Source of the DNA: Dehalobacterium formicoaceticum
GTDB taxonomy: Bacteria > Bacillota > Dehalobacteriia > Dehalobacteriales > Dehalobacteriaceae
DNA: 64,000 nt
Assembly: GCF_002224645.1 (NCBI RefSeq)
Contig: NZ_CP022121.1
Span: 372,001 to 436,000 of the forward strand
Direction of reading: 5' to 3'
Part shown: piece by piece, positions 11,368 through 49,773 of the stretch
Layout: each line of letters starts with the position of its first letter
How positions within the stretch are numbered: position 1 is the stretch's first letter
The notes under the pieces: model-generated
Seen by the model: the letters and a program-made list of their open reading frames with translations, nothing else
Told to the model about the DNA's origin: nothing
Database searches by the model: none
Position numbers and translations under genes: made by a program

Positions 11368-11895
11368 TTATTGAAATAACTCTTTAAGAATGGTACTCGC
11401 TTTATAAGCTCCATATCTAAAAGAACCTGTAGTCATAACGTATCCCGAAGCCATGATCATGAGGAACATCAAGTAAGCAAGTACATTTCTTTCTTCTATT
11501 AACACACTGAGACCCGTTACACCGACAAAAATTATTCCAAAACTCATAAACACAGTCATACTTATTCTAAGTCGCATTTTTATAATTATCGCGTTTTGTT
11601 TTATTTCTCCTTTAATTACCGGTGAAAATGCACCTCCTTCAATTTTCCCTCCTTCATTTATACGCGTTATCTTAAAATGTTTTTCCCCAATTTTCCCTTG
11701 AAAAGGTTTTGTAGTGAGATAAACCAGATTCCATAACAATGACGGCGGGGCAACAATGCTTTGCAATTTTTCCCTTATTTCATCTGATTCAAGGTTGGTA
11801 TTAATTTGCAGTGTATAATATGGAATAAAAATGATTACACACCTCCATTTCCAGAATGCCCAAGGTTCATACTTATTAAAAAACTGGCGTTCCAA
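11368..11895 (-). CDS. Small membrane protein, candidate immunity protein to the Rhs tail
   Basis: The coding frame starts inside the last codons of the Rhs gene and gives up to 175 residues. After IPYYTLQINTNLESDEIREK there is a soluble stretch, then two membrane segments (MTVFMSFGIIFVGVTGLSVL and LAYLMFLMIMASGYVMTTGS). The first in-frame start, TTG at 11895, has no ribosome binding site. A strong GGAGGTG occurs near 11836, just before ATC and ATT codons, so a non-standard start near 11825-11830 is possible. Small proteins placed directly behind an Rhs tail are usually cognate immunity proteins; no specific family was recognised. Confidence 0.55.
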   Translation of the reverse strand: MERQFFNKYEPWAFWKWRCVIIFIPYYTLQINTNLESDEIREKLQSIVAPPSLLWNLVYLTTKPFQGKIGEKHFKITRINEGGKIEGGAFSPVIKGEIKQNAIIIKMRLRISMTVFMSFGIIFVGVTGLSVLIEERNVLAYLMFLMIMASGYVMTTGSFRYGAYKASTILKELFQ

Positions 11896-14800
11896 TGTAT
11901 TTATTTAGCTGCTCCTTGATATCATCAGGTAAATTATCGTTCAACCAATTCATTCTCTGTTTGATTTCTTTTTCAATTTGAGCAGCCTTTTGTGGCGAAG
12001 GCTTCATATTCCAAGTATAGGTAACATATCCATGCCCTTCGACCGGATAAAGTGGTGGTTTTGGTGCACCGGTAAAACTAACACCCCGATACTTCCCTGC
12101 TTGAACGTATTCAATGGTTACATATCCGATTGAACCACCTGTTTCACCACCCCATTTGGTCAAATCGTATACTGTCGGAGCATTAGTAATAGTGAGTGTC
12201 CATCCATATCCAACATTTGGTGTAGTTCCTCCTCCTCCAATCGTTATCAGCGCCGTTTTATTTCCCTGATTATCCATTGCATAAGTAAGAGAACCCATTA
12301 CCCCTGGCCCGCCGCCAATTGAACCTGTAGGGCCTGTCGAAATTGTAAAGTTTTGACTATTGGCAATTGATGAATCATCCACCCATAACCGGTTATTCTT
12401 ATCAATGTTTCCTTTATATGCTGTTGTAACACCATTTACTGTAGCATAAGCGGTTTTAGATATATTATCCCAAGAAATTATTGCACCTTTGGGCAGCGCA
12501 TCTCTAAGGACGACTGGGACAAATCCGCTAGGGTCAACAAACTTTATCGGATTATTACTGCAATAAGTATAAAGATTCAAACTAAGTGGATTGTCAATAC
12601 TACCTTCATAAGGATCCTCCGAAATAAACCTGCCAGTGCTTGGATCATAATACCTAGCCCTTAGATAATAAAAGCCGCTTTCTTCATCAAAGTATTCCCC
12701 CGCATAGCGGATGGGGTTCGCGATACTTTCCGTTTTACTGAGAATATTTCCCCATTCGTCATAGGAATAATTGTTAACAATGTTGCCGTTCACATCAACC
12801 ATTTGCACTACATCCACATGTCCGTTGGTGATGTAGTAATAGAAGTTACTCCCTATCTTCCGGGCCAATGGCTGCTTTCCCCAAATTATTTGGGCGATGG
12901 CATTTCCTGCGCCATCAGCTTCTCCGATTACTCTGCCTAGATCATCACAGTAATAATTGATCGTTCCGGCAGGTGTCGTTTTCTTCTTCCTGATTCCTTC
13001 CGAATCATATTGATATTCGTAGGTTTGATTACCGGTTTTAAAATCCGCCAGCTCATCCCAGGCGTTATAGGTAAGTACCCCGGAGATATAGCTGCTTTCT
13101 CCTGTGATGCTTCCATTGGTTTGGGTCCGGTTGCCCCTGGTATCATATTGATACTCAATTTGGTTGCCATTGGGTCTTGTTATCTTCTTCAGGCGGTTTA
13201 AGGCATCGTATTGATAGGTTGTTGTATCCCCATTCTGGTTGATAGATGTGATATTGCCGTTACAATCATACCCATAACTGTACTGGGAAATAATCTGGGT
13301 GCCAATTTGATTTTGTTAAGGTTTTCAGACGGTTCATGTTATCGTAGGTCTTGAGCGTTTTTAGGGTTTGACCATTGTCCAGTGTGGGATAAATTCCGGC
13401 TTTTACCATCCCATCCGGGTAATATTCATAGGTGAATACCTTGGCCCCGGCAGTAATAGTCGTGTTCCTGTTTAAAGTATCATACTGATAGTCCACTGCC
13501 AGGGGTGTGCTGAAAGGATCCGTCACCTTCGTCTGATTTCCCACATCATCGTATTGAAAGGAGATGGCTTTACTCCCCAAGATTTTATTTTTTATTAAAC
13601 CGGTGGAATAATAGGTAAAACTCAGATTTTCCCCGTTTCCTGTATCATCGTTCCAGACCTCATATTTTTCTATTCCCCCATAAGGGCTGATATATTGTCT
13701 GATCCGATCCCGATTAGCCCGCATCTCAAAAAGCTTTCCATCCGGAGCATAGCTCATCGTGGTGATCTTACCCGAAGGATCTTTCATCTCCACCGGCTGT
13801 CCTGCCCTGTTGTACTTAATATTTGTGGTCTCCCCTCCGGGCTGTCTGCTGGATATCAGCAGACCTCTTTCATCATATGCCTTAATTGATGCAAAGGATG
13901 TTGCACCTTCATACTGCTTCATTTCACTGATATTTCCCATTTGATCATACTGGTAATCCACCGTTTGCCTAAAGCATCGGTGACCTTTTCCAGGTTATTC
14001 AGGGCATCATATTGAAAGGCGGTTACATGATCCTCCGGATCTGTTGATGTGATCAAATTCCCCACCAGATCATACTGATATGATTCTTCCACCAAGGCGG
14101 GCGCACCCAGGCCATCCGGATAACCTTTACGATTGATTAGATTTCCCCATTGGTCATACCCCTCGCTGTAATGGTTTTCAGCCACTCCGGTAGACGCAGG
14201 GACAAAATGCGTTGATTCTGTCCGGTTGAAAATGTCATAGTTATAGAGCTGACGATTTCCCTGACTGTCGGTGATCTCTTTGATCCTCTCCCATTCGTCA
14301 AAAGCATAGTTGGTCTGATTGGATTTGGCATCCTTGATCCAGGATAAATTACCGGTAGAGTCATAACTGTAGATTTCTGTGATATATTTGCCCTGATCAT
14401 AATCGTAGTCTTTGGTTAAAAGAAGATTGCCCCGGTCATCATAATAGTCATAGCTGAAGGCATAAGTTGTTTCTGTTGACTGTCCCACAAGGGTTTTCGT
14501 CTTCCTATGGTACACACGATAGGTATGCTGTCCGCCAAGCTCCCCTGGGGCTATGCTCTTGTAATAGCTATATTTTTCTTTGATCAAATAATCCCCGCTT
14601 TGACCTTTGGTGACCGGATAGGTAATCTGATTGACTCGTCCCTGTCCGTCATAACTAAAGTTGGTCACATTACCCAGGGGGTCAGTGCTATTGGTTACAT
14701 TGCCCCAAATAAATTCATAGTTATTATGGGTGACGGAAGTTTTGGCCGTCCCTTCTTCCGTGTAGTGTTCGGTGACCGTAGTGGGAAAGGCATTATAAGC

Positions 14801-14962
14801 TCCGGTGTAGTCATAGGTAATTGTCCTGGTTTTCCCACCCCCCAGTTCTTTCGTCATCTTGGTGAGATTGCCGGGATAAGTCGTATTCTCATAATAATAC
14901 CCAGTGATTTCCCCTTTTTCATTGGTGGATGAAATCAGCCTGCCCTGTAGGTCAAAATCGTT
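11876..14962 (-). pseudogene. Rhs/YD-repeat protein, 5'-truncated and frameshifted
   Basis: Read on the minus strand, the segment encodes a long series of YD repeats (such as YQYDQMGNISEM and YEYQYDSEG), then the Rhs core YYLRARYYDPSTGRFISEDP and a DPSGF boundary, then a 210-residue variable tail. The frame is broken twice: one extra base in the T4 run at 13311-13314, and a loss near 13961-13968 that a 4-base deletion (AAAC) would explain. At the 5' end, coding similarity stops at an in-frame TGA (14963-14965) next to a palindrome; the N-terminal region is absent. The tail begins with a copper-amine-oxidase-like stalk and is then glycine-rich (GHGYVTYTW). The toxin type is unknown. Confidence 0.88.
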
Positions 14963-25376: not shown

Positions 25377-26528
25377 ATGAAACCAAGCATCTATCTGGAT
25401 AATGCAGCCACATCATGGCCTAAACCAGAAATAGTTTATCAAACCATGGACAACTACCATCGAAATATTGGCGCCAACCCCGGCCGGGGGAGCAGCAGTA
25501 AAACCTTCGCCGCCGGAGGTGTTCTTTTAGATACCCGGGAGGCACTGGCCCGGCTCTTTCATCTTTCTGATATCTCCCGCATCGTCTTCACCAAAAATAT
25601 CACTGAGGCCATTAACACCGTGCTGAAAGGGTATCTCGATCCCGGTGATCATATTATTATCAGTTCTATGGAGCACAACGCCGTGACCCGTCCTTTAAGT
25701 GTGCTAAAAAGAAGCGGAGTGGAGGTCACTGTCGTTGAATGTGCTCCGGATGGCAGTCTGTATCCCCCGGATATCGAAAAAGCCTGGCAAAAAAACACCA
25801 GGATGGTTGCTCTCACTTCTGCTTCCAATGTCACCGGTACCATAATGCCCATTAAAGAAGTAGGATCTATCTGCCGGGAGAGAAACGCCGTATTTTTGCT
25901 GGATTCTGCCCAAAGTGCCGGAATCCTTCCCATTGATGTGGAGGAAGAAAACATTGATATCTTAACCTTTACCGGACATAAAGGTTTATTTGGTCCTCAG
26001 GGCACGGGTGGATTCTACCTTCGGCCTGGTTTGGAAATCCGTTCCTTGATCGAAGGAGGGACCGGCTCTTTATCCGAGACTATTATCCAACCGGAGTTTC
26101 TCCCGGATAAATTTGAAAGCGGCACCCTCAATACCCCTGGGATTGCCGGTTTAGGGGCAGGTGTTGGTTTTATTCTGGAGACAGGCTTATCCACTATCCG
26201 CCAACATGAATTGCCGCTTATGAATTTGCTCATGGACGGATTAAGTGAGATTTCCGGTCTTACCCTCTATGGGCCTAAAGACAGCCATAAAAAAACCTCC
26301 GTCTTATCCCTCAATCTGGCCGGGATGGAGTGCGGCGAACTCAGCTTCGCTTTGGACGAGAGATTTGGCATCATCACCCGTTCCGGACTTCATTGTGCCC
26401 CTCTGGCCCATAAAACCATCGGCACCCTGCAGCAGGGAACCTGCCGGGTAAGTCTAGGTTATTTTACCACTCAGGAAGAGATCACTTTTTTCCTGGATGC
26501 CATGAGGAAACTGAGTACTGAAATATAG
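25377..26528 (+). CDS. Cysteine desulfurase-family PLP enzyme
   Basis: The 383-residue class V aminotransferase has IYLDNAATSWPKPE at the N-terminus, GANPGRGSSSKTF, SSMEHNAVTRPL, LLDSAQSAG, the TGHKGLFGPQGTGG lysine motif and SGLHCAP with the catalytic cysteine loop. The pattern fits the EF2568-type branch (TIGR01977), often found near selenium or molybdenum-hydroxylase genes, rather than the main IscS or SufS. It would release sulfur or selenium from cysteine or selenocysteine. AGGAGGG precedes the ATG. It stands alone, with a strong terminator. Confidence 0.88.
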   Translation: MKPSIYLDNAATSWPKPEIVYQTMDNYHRNIGANPGRGSSSKTFAAGGVLLDTREALARLFHLSDISRIVFTKNITEAINTVLKGYLDPGDHIIISSMEHNAVTRPLSVLKRSGVEVTVVECAPDGSLYPPDIEKAWQKNTRMVALTSASNVTGTIMPIKEVGSICRERNAVFLLDSAQSAGILPIDVEEENIDILTFTGHKGLFGPQGTGGFYLRPGLEIRSLIEGGTGSLSETIIQPEFLPDKFESGTLNTPGIAGLGAGVGFILETGLSTIRQHELPLMNLLMDGLSEISGLTLYGPKDSHKKTSVLSLNLAGMECGELSFALDERFGIITRSGLHCAPLAHKTIGTLQQGTCRVSLGYFTTQEEITFFLDAMRKLSTEI

Positions 26529-43657: not shown

Positions 43658-44455
43658 ATGAAAAAAATGAGTTTACTATTAGTTTTCTTGATGATGTTTG
43701 CTTTAGTCCTTACAGGCTGTGGCAACGAAAATGGAACATCTGATGCGGAAGGACCTACAGATGAGGCAGTAGAAATCAACATATCAGCTGCCGCCAGCTT
43801 AACAGATGCCCTGACAGAGATTCAAGCCGAATACGCTAAAAAAAGCAATGCCATTTTACAATTCAATTTCGCCGCTTCGGGAACCCTGCAGAAACAAATT
43901 CAGGAAGGAGCTCCCTGTGATCTCTTTATTTCAGCCTCTAAGGGGCATATGGATACTTTAGAAGGAGACGGGCTGGTGGTCACAGACTCCCGCAAAGACT
44001 TATTGGGTAATACCTTGACCCTGATAGCCACGGCAGAAAAAGCGGATTTGATTACCGGACCAGAATCCTTTACCAATGATGATGTGGCCAGCATTGCCAT
44101 CGGAGAACCAGAATCGGTGCCGGCAGGAAATTACTCCAAACAAACTTTCGAAAGCTTGGGAATTTGGGATCAAATTCAAGAAAAACTTGTCTTCGCCAAA
44201 GATGTGCGTCAGGTGTTACAATATGTTGATTCCGGCAATGCTGACTGTGGTCTTGTTTACAGATCCGATGCCATGTTGCTGGAAACAGGAAAAATCATTG
44301 TAGATATGCCTGCGGATTCTCATGACCCCATTGTATATCCGGCCGCTATCATGAAAAATGCTGCGCAACCGGAAGCAGCAAATGCATTCTATGAATTCCT
44401 GCAGACAGATTACGCCAAAAAAACCTTCGAAAAATATGGTTTTCAAGTTCTCTAA
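43658..44455 (+). CDS. modA: Molybdate ABC transporter substrate-binding lipoprotein
   Basis: The 265-residue protein has a lipoprotein signal with lipobox VLTGC near residue 21, so it should be anchored on the outer face by Lgt. The mature part shows ISAAASLTDALTEIQAEYAK, FAASGTLQKQIQEG and AGNYSKQTFESLG, typical of molybdate/tungstate-binding ModA. The serines in AAASL and ASGT contact the oxyanion. AGGGAGG precedes the ATG. It is the first gene of modABC, 70 bp after a consensus promoter. Confidence 0.95.
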   Translation: MKKMSLLLVFLMMFALVLTGCGNENGTSDAEGPTDEAVEINISAAASLTDALTEIQAEYAKKSNAILQFNFAASGTLQKQIQEGAPCDLFISASKGHMDTLEGDGLVVTDSRKDLLGNTLTLIATAEKADLITGPESFTNDDVASIAIGEPESVPAGNYSKQTFESLGIWDQIQEKLVFAKDVRQVLQYVDSGNADCGLVYRSDAMLLETGKIIVDMPADSHDPIVYPAAIMKNAAQPEAANAFYEFLQTDYAKKTFEKYGFQVL

Positions 44456-44486
44456 AGAAAACCACTCATAAAAGGAGTTTAACTAA

Positions 44487-45164
44487 ATGCTAGCCCCGAT
44501 CATTCTCTCGCTAAAAATTGCCTCTATAGCAACTGTCTTTTCCTTGATTTTAGGCGTTTTTTTCGCCTATTTAATCAACAAAAAGAATGTCCCCGGGAAA
44601 AATATTTGGGAGACGATTCTGATCTTACCGATGATATTGCCTCCTTCAGTGACAGGTTATCTGCTTTTAATCGCACTTGGCAAAAGAGGATGGATCGGGC
44701 GTTTTTTATTAGAAAATTTTGAACTGCAAATTGTCTTTACCTTGGTCGGCGCGGTTATTGCCGCATGTATAGTCTCACTGCCCCTTATGTATCAGAACGT
44801 CAAGGCAGCTTTTCTCACCATCGACCCCATTTATGAACAGGCGGCACAAACCTTGGGCAGCAGTGAAGGGAAAATATTCAGAACCGTGATCATTCCTTTA
44901 GCATGGCCGGGAATTATCAGCGGGATTGCCCTTTCCTTTGCCAGGGCTATCGGTGAATTTGGCGCCACTTTAATGATTGCAGGCAATATTCCCGGGAAAA
45001 CCCAAACTATCCCCACCGCAATTTATTTTGCCGTGGAATCAGGTAATACGGAATTAGCCAATACATTAGTTCTAATTATGACCATCTTTAGCTTTGTCCT
45101 AATATTTGGATTAAATACATGGTTAAAGAACAAAAATTATTTAGACCACAAGGGTAGGGCGTAG
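44487..45164 (+). CDS. modB: Molybdate ABC transporter permease
   Basis: The 225-residue permease has five membrane helices. It has LPPSVTGYLLLIALG and the EAA loop EQAAQTLGSSEGKIFRTVII, with the family's ARAIGEFGATLMIAGN motif at the exit helix. It forms the channel for molybdate import with ModA and ModC. It begins 31 bp after modA and has AAAGGAG upstream. Confidence 0.95.
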   Translation: MLAPIILSLKIASIATVFSLILGVFFAYLINKKNVPGKNIWETILILPMILPPSVTGYLLLIALGKRGWIGRFLLENFELQIVFTLVGAVIAACIVSLPLMYQNVKAAFLTIDPIYEQAAQTLGSSEGKIFRTVIIPLAWPGIISGIALSFARAIGEFGATLMIAGNIPGKTQTIPTAIYFAVESGNTELANTLVLIMTIFSFVLIFGLNTWLKNKNYLDHKGRA

Positions 45165-45166
45165 AC

Positions 45167-45844
45167 GTGAAGATCTATTTTAGGATTAAAAAGAAGCTGG
45201 ACCATTTTACCATTGACCTGGAATATTCATTTGAAAAGGGAGTTCTTGTAGTTCAAGGGGAATCGGGATCAGGCAAAACCACCCTGCTCAATTGTATCTC
45301 CGATCTGAAGAATCCGGATCAAGGCAGGATTAGCTTGGGAGATCTGGTGGTCTTTGACGACACACTTGAAATCAACATCCCCACCCGCTTAAGAAATCTG
45401 GGCTATCTATTCCAAAATTTTGCCCTGTTTCCTCATATGAGCGTACATCAGAATATTATTTATGGCATTAAAAACAGTCCCGAATACAAAAACAAAAAAA
45501 GCAGGGCGGAGCTTCTTTCTTATTCTGAGCACATTATGAAAACCTTGGGCATCCACCACTTGAAAAAGAAACTGCCTAACAACATCTCCGGTGGAGAGAA
45601 GCAACGGGTTGCCTTGACTAGGGCGATTGTCACCAAGCCTAAACTGCTGCTTTTGGATGAGCCTTTTTCCGCCTTGGATCGGGAAACAAAAAAGATTGTC
45701 TATCAGGAATTCGCCTCTTTTAAGGAGCTTTTTAAAATCCCGACAATATTAATCACTCATGATAAAAAGGAGAACGAAATGTTTGGGGATGAGTGTATTT
45801 ATATCAAGGATGGGGTTATTATTGGTTGCCCAACAGAGATTTAA
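45167..45844 (+). CDS. modC: Molybdate ABC transporter ATPase, short form
   Basis: The 225-residue ATPase has Walker A GESGSGKTT, a Q-loop at LFQNFALFPHM, signature ISGGEKQRVALTRA, Walker B LLLLDEPFSALD and the ITHD switch. It lacks the C-terminal molybdate-binding TOBE domain of the 350-residue E. coli ModC. That sensing task may rest with the divergent regulator. The start is GTG two bases after the modB stop. A terminator follows at once. Confidence 0.93.
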   Translation: MKIYFRIKKKLDHFTIDLEYSFEKGVLVVQGESGSGKTTLLNCISDLKNPDQGRISLGDLVVFDDTLEINIPTRLRNLGYLFQNFALFPHMSVHQNIIYGIKNSPEYKNKKSRAELLSYSEHIMKTLGIHHLKKKLPNNISGGEKQRVALTRAIVTKPKLLLLDEPFSALDRETKKIVYQEFASFKELFKIPTILITHDKKENEMFGDECIYIKDGVIIGCPTEI

Positions 45845-48135: not shown

Positions 48136-48378
48136 TCATAACCGTAGCATGCATTCCATCGTTTTCAGCAACTCATCATGAAGCATAATAATTTGTTCTG
48201 TTAAGCGGGCCCTAATCTGCAGCATTAACTTATATTCATTTAGTCCATAGAACTCCTCGCATTTATTACTATAATACATAAATAACTCATATATTACAAC
48301 CAAAGGTTTATAAAATAAAAAAATATTTACTAAAGGTAATTTTGCTAGAAATCTTATTTTTAATGGTACTTCGTCCAC
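48136..48378 (-). CDS. Small hypothetical ORF
   Basis: A frame of up to 80 codons just upstream of the P5C dehydrogenase overlaps the 3' end of the MBL gene. Its second half (LQIRARLTEQIIMLHDELLK) is helical and looks coding; the first half does not. No ribosome binding site suits the upstream start. A shorter peptide from an internal start is possible. I recognise no family. Confidence 0.25.
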   Translation of the reverse strand: MDEVPLKIRFLAKLPLVNIFLFYKPLVVIYELFMYYSNKCEEFYGLNEYKLMLQIRARLTEQIIMLHDELLKTMECMLRL

Positions 48379-49277
48379 CAGTCCACCAAACCTTTGGCAC
48401 TGACCTCAATGGTGGAAGGGTACATCGAGGGCAGGGGTTTGTCCTTTGGCCAGCCCAGTTCCTCCAAAACATCTTTGATTTTTACTTCCATGAGATCATA
48501 GATTTCCTGCCAAGTGGTGGCTCCTTTAGCAAAAGCTTCTTCTGTCAGCGCGCAAAAAAGATCCAGGTTTCTTAGGGTTGTGTCCAGGTATTCGTTGGTG
48601 AGATTTTTCTTGACGCCAAAATGGGAAAAATATAATTGTTCCGGCCGAAGGCGCCTGATTTTTTCCAAGGATTGCCGGTAGGCTTGAGGATCAAATTGAT
48701 TGGGCGCCGAGGGTAACAGACTGTATTCAATCCCGTAGAGAGCCAACTCGGTGTTGTAGACGCCCAACTGATCTCCGCAAAACAAACCATTAGTAAGGCT
48801 GTCCATAATGGTTAAATGATGATTGGCATGTCCCTTGCCATGATAAAAGGTAAGCGTGCGTTCCCCCAAATCCAGACTGCTTTCATCCTCCAGAGCCCAA
48901 ATACGTTCCGGAGCAATGGGCAGCACCGGTTCATAAAATTCATAAGCATCCCCATAAGCGATTTTAGCTCCGGCAATCAGACGACTGGGGTCTGCCATGT
49001 GACGGGCTCCGGCAGGGTGTACCAATAGACGAGCATTAGGACATTGATTTAATAGCCATCCTGCCGATCCGGCGTGATCTAAATGAATATGGGTCACAAT
49101 CACATATTTAAGGTCGGAGGGGGTATACCCTTTGCTTTTTAAAGTATTGAGGATTATCTCACCGGCGGGGCCGGGGCCGGTTTCCACCAAGGTTAAATGA
49201 TCTCCTTCTATTAGATAACCACAGGTTTTACCAGCCTGACCGCAATCAAAATAATCCATCATCGTAATATTTATCAC
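48360..49277 (-). CDS. MBL-fold metallo-hydrolase
   Basis: The 305-residue protein has the metallo-beta-lactamase motif THIHLDHAGSAGWL, a later GHANHH, GLFCGDQLGVY and a final SHFGVKK histidine, giving a complete dinuclear zinc or iron site. The C-terminal 90 residues are helical, as in glyoxalase II-like and RNase-like relatives. The start GTG 49277 is set by GGAGG eight bases upstream. It lies 16 bp after the ArsC-like selenoprotein gene, so the two are probably co-transcribed. The substrate is unknown. Confidence 0.85.
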   Translation of the reverse strand: MINITMMDYFDCGQAGKTCGYLIEGDHLTLVETGPGPAGEIILNTLKSKGYTPSDLKYVIVTHIHLDHAGSAGWLLNQCPNARLLVHPAGARHMADPSRLIAGAKIAYGDAYEFYEPVLPIAPERIWALEDESSLDLGERTLTFYHGKGHANHHLTIMDSLTNGLFCGDQLGVYNTELALYGIEYSLLPSAPNQFDPQAYRQSLEKIRRLRPEQLYFSHFGVKKNLTNEYLDTTLRNLDLFCALTEEAFAKGATTWQEIYDLMEVKIKDVLEELGWPKDKPLPSMYPSTIEVSAKGLVDWWTKYH

Positions 49278-49293: not shown

Positions 49294-49668
49294 TTATTTG
49301 TTTTCGGGGATGAGCTTGTTGAACTCCTCTTCCTTAAAGCCCAGCAGTACTTGCTCCCCCGTAAGGACAATGGGGCGAAACATGATCTTGGGATTCTTAG
49401 TGAGCAGTGTCAGTGCTGTTTCTTCAGTTAAATTTTCTAAATCAGCGGGTTTGATGCCCAGATCTTTGAGATTTCTGCTTTTGGGATTAATCAACCCGGC
49501 AATGGGAATCTTTTTCCTTTGAGCGATCATTTTTAATTCATCCGGCAACAATTGATCCTTTTCCAGATGGCGGTAAACAAAATCCAGCCCATGATCAGAA
49601 AGCCACGCTTTCCCTTTGCGGCAAGTGACTCAGCTGGGTAAGCAAATATAAGTAATCGAATCCAACAA
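49294..49668 (-). CDS. ArsC/Spx-family selenoprotein (TGA read as selenocysteine)
   Basis: From TTG 49668 (AGGAGGAG six bases upstream) the frame reads SITYICLPS, then TGA at 49630-49632, then VTCRKGKAWLSDHGLDF and on to IMFRPIVLTGEQVLLGF. ArsC/Spx proteins have P-x-C-x-T-C-R-K here, so TGA stands exactly at the first catalytic cysteine, giving Sec13-x-x-Cys16. Similarity continues on both sides without frame change, and the length of 124 residues suits the family. A SECIS-like hairpin follows at the right distance. Expected role: thiol redox chemistry, arsenate reductase or Spx-like. Conventional calling starts only after the TGA. Confidence 0.82.
49597..49613 (-). promoter_or_regulatory. 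Bacterial SECIS-like hairpin
   Basis: On the minus strand GGAAAGC, loop GTG, GCTTTCT forms a stem of six Watson-Crick pairs plus one G-U. The apical loop begins with GU and lies 23 bases after the TGA, within the usual bSECIS window of about 16-37 bases. Confidence 0.65.
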
Positions 49669-49773
49669 TAATCTCCTCCTTTGATCAAGGATTCACTATC
49701 CATTATCAAAAACTTAAGTTTATTCCAGGGGAAAAACAATCTAACTTGTTACAAATATTGTACATTTATGAGG

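Follow-up and report, generated by a model that had tools for sequence, protein, structure and literature searches.

A short reading frame on the minus strand of the DNA analysed here (a 64-kb window, positions 372001-436000 of a 3.77-Mb genome assembled as one contig) carries a TGA triplet where its relatives have an active-site codon. Is this triplet a stop that breaks the gene, or is it read as selenocysteine (Sec), and, if the latter, what might the product do? The segment 49668-49294 of the minus strand forms a single frame of 124 codons with one TGA and no other internal stop, and is closed by TAA at 49296-49294. A strong Shine-Dalgarno sequence, AGGAGG (49675-49680, minus strand), lies 6 nt ahead of a TTG start at 49668, with TTG 49665 as a possible alternative start. 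The translation reads LLDSITYICLPS-U-VTCRKGKAWLSDHGLDF... and ends in PENK. The TGA (49630-49632, minus strand) specifies residue 13 and takes the place of the first Cys of a CxxC motif (P-S-U-V-T-C-R-K), giving UxxC, while the second, resolving Cys is encoded by TGC (49621-49623, minus strand) and is invariant in the Sec clade described below. An original prediction, made from the letters of this DNA, held that ArsC/Spx homology flanks a single TGA at the first Cys, and the Pfam ArsC profile PF03960 bears out this frame: its match (54 bits against a cut-off of 24) runs from residue 11 to 118, on both sides of the TGA. The same prediction put the loss without Sec at 17 codons, which proved too low, as the next in-frame start is TTG 49551 and 39 residues, the active site among them, would be lost. 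Standard annotation would probably give an 85-residue fragment of this gene, or miss it altogether. On the sequence evidence set out below, 49294-49668 (minus strand) is almost certainly a selenoprotein gene, and we infer that its UGA is decoded as Sec in the cell.

The genome has the means for such decoding. A tRNA-Sec gene, selC, was found at 75.7 bits and was also called by ARAGORN; selA (603 bits) and selB (390 bits) lie side by side 6.3 kb from it; and selD (376 bits) has an in-frame TGA of its own (TAAG-U-AAK). All four genes that the original prediction proposed to look for are therefore present. A peroxiredoxin gene at 1667595-1668176 likewise has TGA at the position of the peroxidatic residue (TFV-U-ATE). 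Counting selD, the genome thus has no fewer than two likely selenoprotein genes besides the present one. An EF2568-type cysteine desulfurase family protein is encoded in the window at 25377-26528 (plus strand; TIGR01977, 487 bits against a cut-off of 377) and is a possible selenium donor enzyme, as judged from its sequence. This is the desulfurase that the original prediction called consistent with selenium use, but it falls short of the selenocysteine lyase SclA model NF040779 (406 against 525). Near selC, a glycogen phosphorylase-like gene occupies two frames (L030:15590-17295), with a frameshift that possibly reflects a pseudogene or an assembly error.

A rival reading takes the TGA for a stop that arose by mutation of a Cys codon, or for a sequencing error. 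A homologue is present in 21 of 61 related genomes, and in six of these, the present one included, it has one TGA; in 398 genomes of the phylum, each of the best 17 matches has exactly one TGA. In an alignment of 127 distinct loci, drawn from the related genomes, the phylum genomes and 80 named genome contigs, the column of this codon holds TGA in 57 loci, TGC or TGT in 70, and nothing else. The comparison of TGA with TGC in homologues that had been proposed as a check thus finds both at the same column, and the random stops and frameshifts in relatives that had been named as grounds for abandoning the idea were not seen. Eighteen further TGA loci were found among weaker matches, and there too the TGA falls on this active-site residue. 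SelB scored above its cut-off in all 29 TGA genomes tested, versus 8 of the 20 classed as Cys-only; among the eight is G279, in which a second homologue, L194, does bear a TGA. A search of viral contigs for relatives of the gene found none. That TGA is one base away from TGC and TGT, and that frames are broken elsewhere in this genome (Rhs-like fragments in the window and the split glycogen phosphorylase-like frame near selC), might speak for decay or error. Against this stand an identical TGA shared by 57 loci from many families, a clean frame, and frozen synonymous sites and covariation downstream of the TGA. For this gene, decay or error is barely credible, and for the family as a whole the sequence comparisons refute it.

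Those downstream constraints center on a hairpin. The bacterial Sec insertion element (bSECIS) proposed for this gene, GGAAAGC-GUG-GCUUUCU, has its stem at 49613-49597 and its loop, GUG, at 49606-49604 (minus strand), 23 nt past the TGA, just where a hairpin with a GU-starting loop had been predicted. Published constraints on bSECIS elements, as given in PMC13188914, are a loop of 3-9 nt with a G in its first two positions, a stem of 4-16 bp, a distance of 16-37 nt from the UGA and a minimum free energy of -7.5 or lower; the present hairpin fits all four (3-nt loop GUG, 6-7 bp, 23 nt, -11 kcal/mol). Its folding energy is no better than that of shuffled sequence (z = -0.12), and support for it therefore rests on conservation. 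The codons downstream of the TGA are nearly fixed in TGA loci as GCG AAA GCG TGG CTT TCN, which gives GAAAGC-GUG-GCUUUC. Leu is encoded by CTT in 48 of 57 TGA loci, versus 14% elsewhere in these genes and 15 of 69 Cys homologues, and the second Ala by GCG in 47 of 54 TGA loci, versus 18% in the rest of the genes and 11 of 45 Cys homologues. Since these hairpin counts are of sequences and not of independent events, the associated p-values (binomial, 8e-32 for CTT and 9e-28 for GCG) serve as guides only. The synonymous freeze of GCG-AAA-GCG-TGG-CTT is limited to TGA loci, and a complete hairpin with a G in the loop occurs in 51 of 57 Sec loci versus 1 of 70 Cys loci. Moreover, the stem covaries: five loci have A21-U35 in place of G21-C35 (none of 5000 shuffles did as well), and three Gly-containing rows, ours among them, have G20-C36 or G20-U36 in place of C20-G36 (100 of 5000 shuffles). 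Other Sec loci have an alternative design, GCCAA-G(G/U)C-UUGGC. The bSECIS check that had been proposed thus supports the element, which is unusually conserved and easily recognized.

Most of these genes also group together. In a tree of the family, 52 of the 57 Sec rows fall into one group (support 87/89), in which the present gene joins those of two other genomes (99/96). With the active-site and SECIS columns removed, the Sec clade still clusters (2 changes, versus 40 in shuffles), but it is not recovered as exactly one clade. By these sequence comparisons our protein belongs to a separate clade of the Spx/ArsC fold, with a predicted Sec in every sampled member. C-x-x-x-U-x-T-C and N58 are invariant in it, and R92 and P93 (Spx numbering) almost so. 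Because the family is large and widespread in anaerobes, Sec occurs in all sampled members of the clade and the SECIS is recognizable, the family can be modeled and annotated at once. Four Sec rows (L015, L023, L027 and L110) lie among Cys proteins and show either the alternative design or a hairpin that is incomplete, which suggests convergent gains of Sec. In these four loci and in L185-L202, the TGA occupies the corresponding position in different ArsC/Spx subfamilies (e.g., YPSUTSARKAK and PGUSTVKKAK), some with a hairpin of different build; by sequence, Sec has probably been taken up repeatedly and independently across the ArsC/Spx superfamily.

To which known proteins does the product come closest? 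It is a divergent member, with a mean identity to its clade of 37%. For its AlphaFold model (pLDDT 93), the nearest folds are Spx (3gfk, Z 18.1) and, in a tie with it, the ArsC-like 3gkx (Z 18.0), which together with the PF03960 score places it in that superfamily. It might accordingly be a selenium version of Spx, a regulator acting on RNA polymerase with the Sec-Cys pair as a very sensitive redox switch; Spx is among its NCBIfam and structure matches, and true Spx is nearest to the Sec clade in the tree, split from the MgsR/ArsC-like rows with support 100/99. Yet Spx Gly52, described in PMC2801614 as absolutely required for activation through the alpha-CTD of RNA polymerase, is G in all eight Spx rows but T, E, S or K in the Sec clade and Pro in our protein, the position of Spx Arg60 is mostly Lys in the Sec clade, and all NCBIfam Spx models score below cut-off (72 against 123, 58 against 159 and 57 against 152 bits). 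A regulatory role of this kind is quite improbable, and we rejected the protein as a Spx for lack of Gly52 and of a score above those cut-offs. The predicted membership in the Spx/ArsC fold thus stands as to fold but not as to being a Spx. With Cys in place of Sec, the protein scores 71.8 bits in the Spx/MgsR arsC_related model TIGR01617 (cut-off 75.05), in which other clade members score 86 and 108. Membership in NF041106 (ArsC_rel_Se_1) was likewise rejected, at 17.0 bits against a cut-off of 85; two other clade members score 40 and 43.

A selenoprotein reductase of arsenate, or of selenate or another oxyanion, is a further reading. The fold is that of the ArsC family (E. coli ArsC matches at a Z of about 14), and the Arg-Pro pair of that family is kept (R98-P99). 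On the other hand, the arsC model TIGR00014 gives 31.5 bits against a cut-off of 106, classical ArsC has a single catalytic Cys versus UxxC here, and inspection of the recurrent neighbors, as opposed to a profile search, brought no ars operon genes to notice. Such an activity is unlikely, if somewhat less so than regulation of RNA polymerase. As the Spx, arsC and NF041106 cut-offs are not reached and Gly52 is absent, the protein is treated here, on its sequence, as a Spx/ArsC-fold redox protein that is neither Spx nor arsenate reductase. Most likely, the Sec-Cys pair would act as a glutaredoxin- or thioredoxin-like selenol/thiol reductase.

The genes that surround the Sec clade point to a candidate substrate for such a reductase. 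The commonest identifiable neighbor is a peroxiredoxin with TGA as peroxidatic residue (TFV-U-PTE), which adjoins the Sec gene in 14 loci (L040, L041, L045, L050, L052, L061, L063, L065, L067, L068, L071, L073, L074 and L077), immediately upstream and in the same orientation in 13 of them and divergent in L068. Such a Sec-peroxiredoxin occurs within 2.5 kb in 13 of the 46 Sec-clade loci for which 700 or more bases of upstream sequence exist (plus L067), versus none of 70 Cys loci (p = 1.8e-6). The pairs were seen in diverse Clostridia-type MAGs, and the divergent one in an Atribacteria MAG. This adjacency hints at a shared selenium-based oxidant defence and provides a direct, testable hypothesis for the role of Sec-ArsC/Spx-like proteins. 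Somewhere in the genome, a Sec-peroxiredoxin is found in 11 of the 18 genomes with a Sec-clade gene, the present genome included. In the remaining seven, about a third, no TGA-carrying match was found; Sec-peroxiredoxin therefore cannot be the sole substrate, and others must exist.

The present gene itself adjoins not a peroxiredoxin, which lies elsewhere in the genome, but a gene for an MBL-fold hydrolase of 305 residues (48360-49277, minus strand, GTG start; Lactamase_B PF00753, 99 bits). Only 16 nt separate the two genes, and they are probably cotranscribed. The link to an MBL-fold hydrolase that the original prediction drew is weak: an MBL-fold gene directly follows the Sec gene in five Sec loci, this one and four others, and as the MBL proteins of those four share no more than 25-33% identity with ours and belong to distant families, we rejected the linkage as a family trait. 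In eight loci (L047, L048, L072, L086, L154, L158, L163 and L164), from Syntrophomonas-type genomes, a three-gene run resembling AmmeMemoRadiSam (AMMECR1/MEMO/radical SAM-like, named by sequence resemblance) lies directly upstream of the Sec gene. Within the window, an ABC transporter operon that resembles molybdate uptake (modABC-like by sequence) lies at 43658-45844, about 4 kb from the Sec gene, and adjoining minus-strand ORFs with Rhs/YD-repeat-like sequence at 11368-14857 are probably a decayed Rhs-type gene.

Taken as a selenol/thiol reductase, the gene product might work as follows. SelB and Sec-tRNA(Sec) would decode the UGA, aided by the hairpin whose loop lies 23 nt beyond, to yield a 124-residue thioredoxin-fold protein with the active site C-x-x-x-U-x-T-C. 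Its Sec would attack an oxidized substrate, and the second Cys would resolve the intermediate by selenol/disulfide exchange at U13-C16. With a Sec-peroxiredoxin as partner, the two would form a two-selenoprotein pathway of peroxide reduction in anaerobes. Sec-peroxiredoxin is the best-supported candidate partner, from gene adjacency and by analogy with a Sec-glutaredoxin/Sec-MsrA pair, and the chance that it is in fact a substrate appears a little below even. The broader proposal is a little more tentative: that the Sec clade represents a selenium-only reductase dedicated to Sec-peroxiredoxins, often encoded with them in one operon, and that in Bacillota that are syntrophic or otherwise strictly anaerobic this two-selenoprotein system replaces a thioredoxin or AhpF-type reductant based on Cys.

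Proteins of the ArsC/Spx type in which Sec replaces the first Cys have been described before, also under the domain entry cd03032 (ArsC_Spx). As the original prediction noted, metagenome surveys list such proteins: the relevant entries are 'Arsenate reductase 2' (cd03032, UxxC) of the GOS marine metagenomes (PMC2398784) and the Sec-containing ArsC-like selenoproteins listed by Zhang in 2006 (PMC1794560), which have the same Sec in UxxC. Those proteins came from marine metagenomes and Deltaproteobacteria, and the passages that list them describe no clade, SECIS conservation or Sec-peroxiredoxin operon. The NCBIfam family NF041106, 'ArsC family (seleno)protein', shares the ArsC family, UxxC and Sec with our protein but is, by its score, a different family. 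Spx of B. subtilis (3gfk, 1z3e) has the same fold, CxxC position and Arg92-Pro93 and a similar length, but it has Cys instead of Sec, possesses the Gly52 absent here, and lacks the extra Cys, invariant in the Sec clade, four residues ahead of Sec. Our literature search found no link between Spx and selenocysteine in bacteria. Where they list Sec-ArsC/Spx-like proteins, recent reviews do so without a tested function, and the section on selenoprotein operons of a 2026 review pairs peroxiredoxin with a SelW-like protein and a peroxiredoxin-like with an AhpD-like protein, and does not name peroxiredoxin with ArsC. We found no earlier description of a Sec-peroxiredoxin/ArsC operon, though the specialist selenoprotein literature may hold one. 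The closest parallel is the Sec-glutaredoxin and Sec-MsrA of Clostridium oremlandii, a 'tandem use of selenocysteine' as cited in PMC13188914, in which a Sec reductase likewise serves a Sec enzyme; that pair belongs to other protein families and was shown biochemically, whereas the pairing proposed here comes from gene adjacency. Sec-containing ArsC-like proteins are already known, and the gene studied here is a confidently identified further example; of greater interest are the Sec-only clade and the operon that it forms with Sec-peroxiredoxin.
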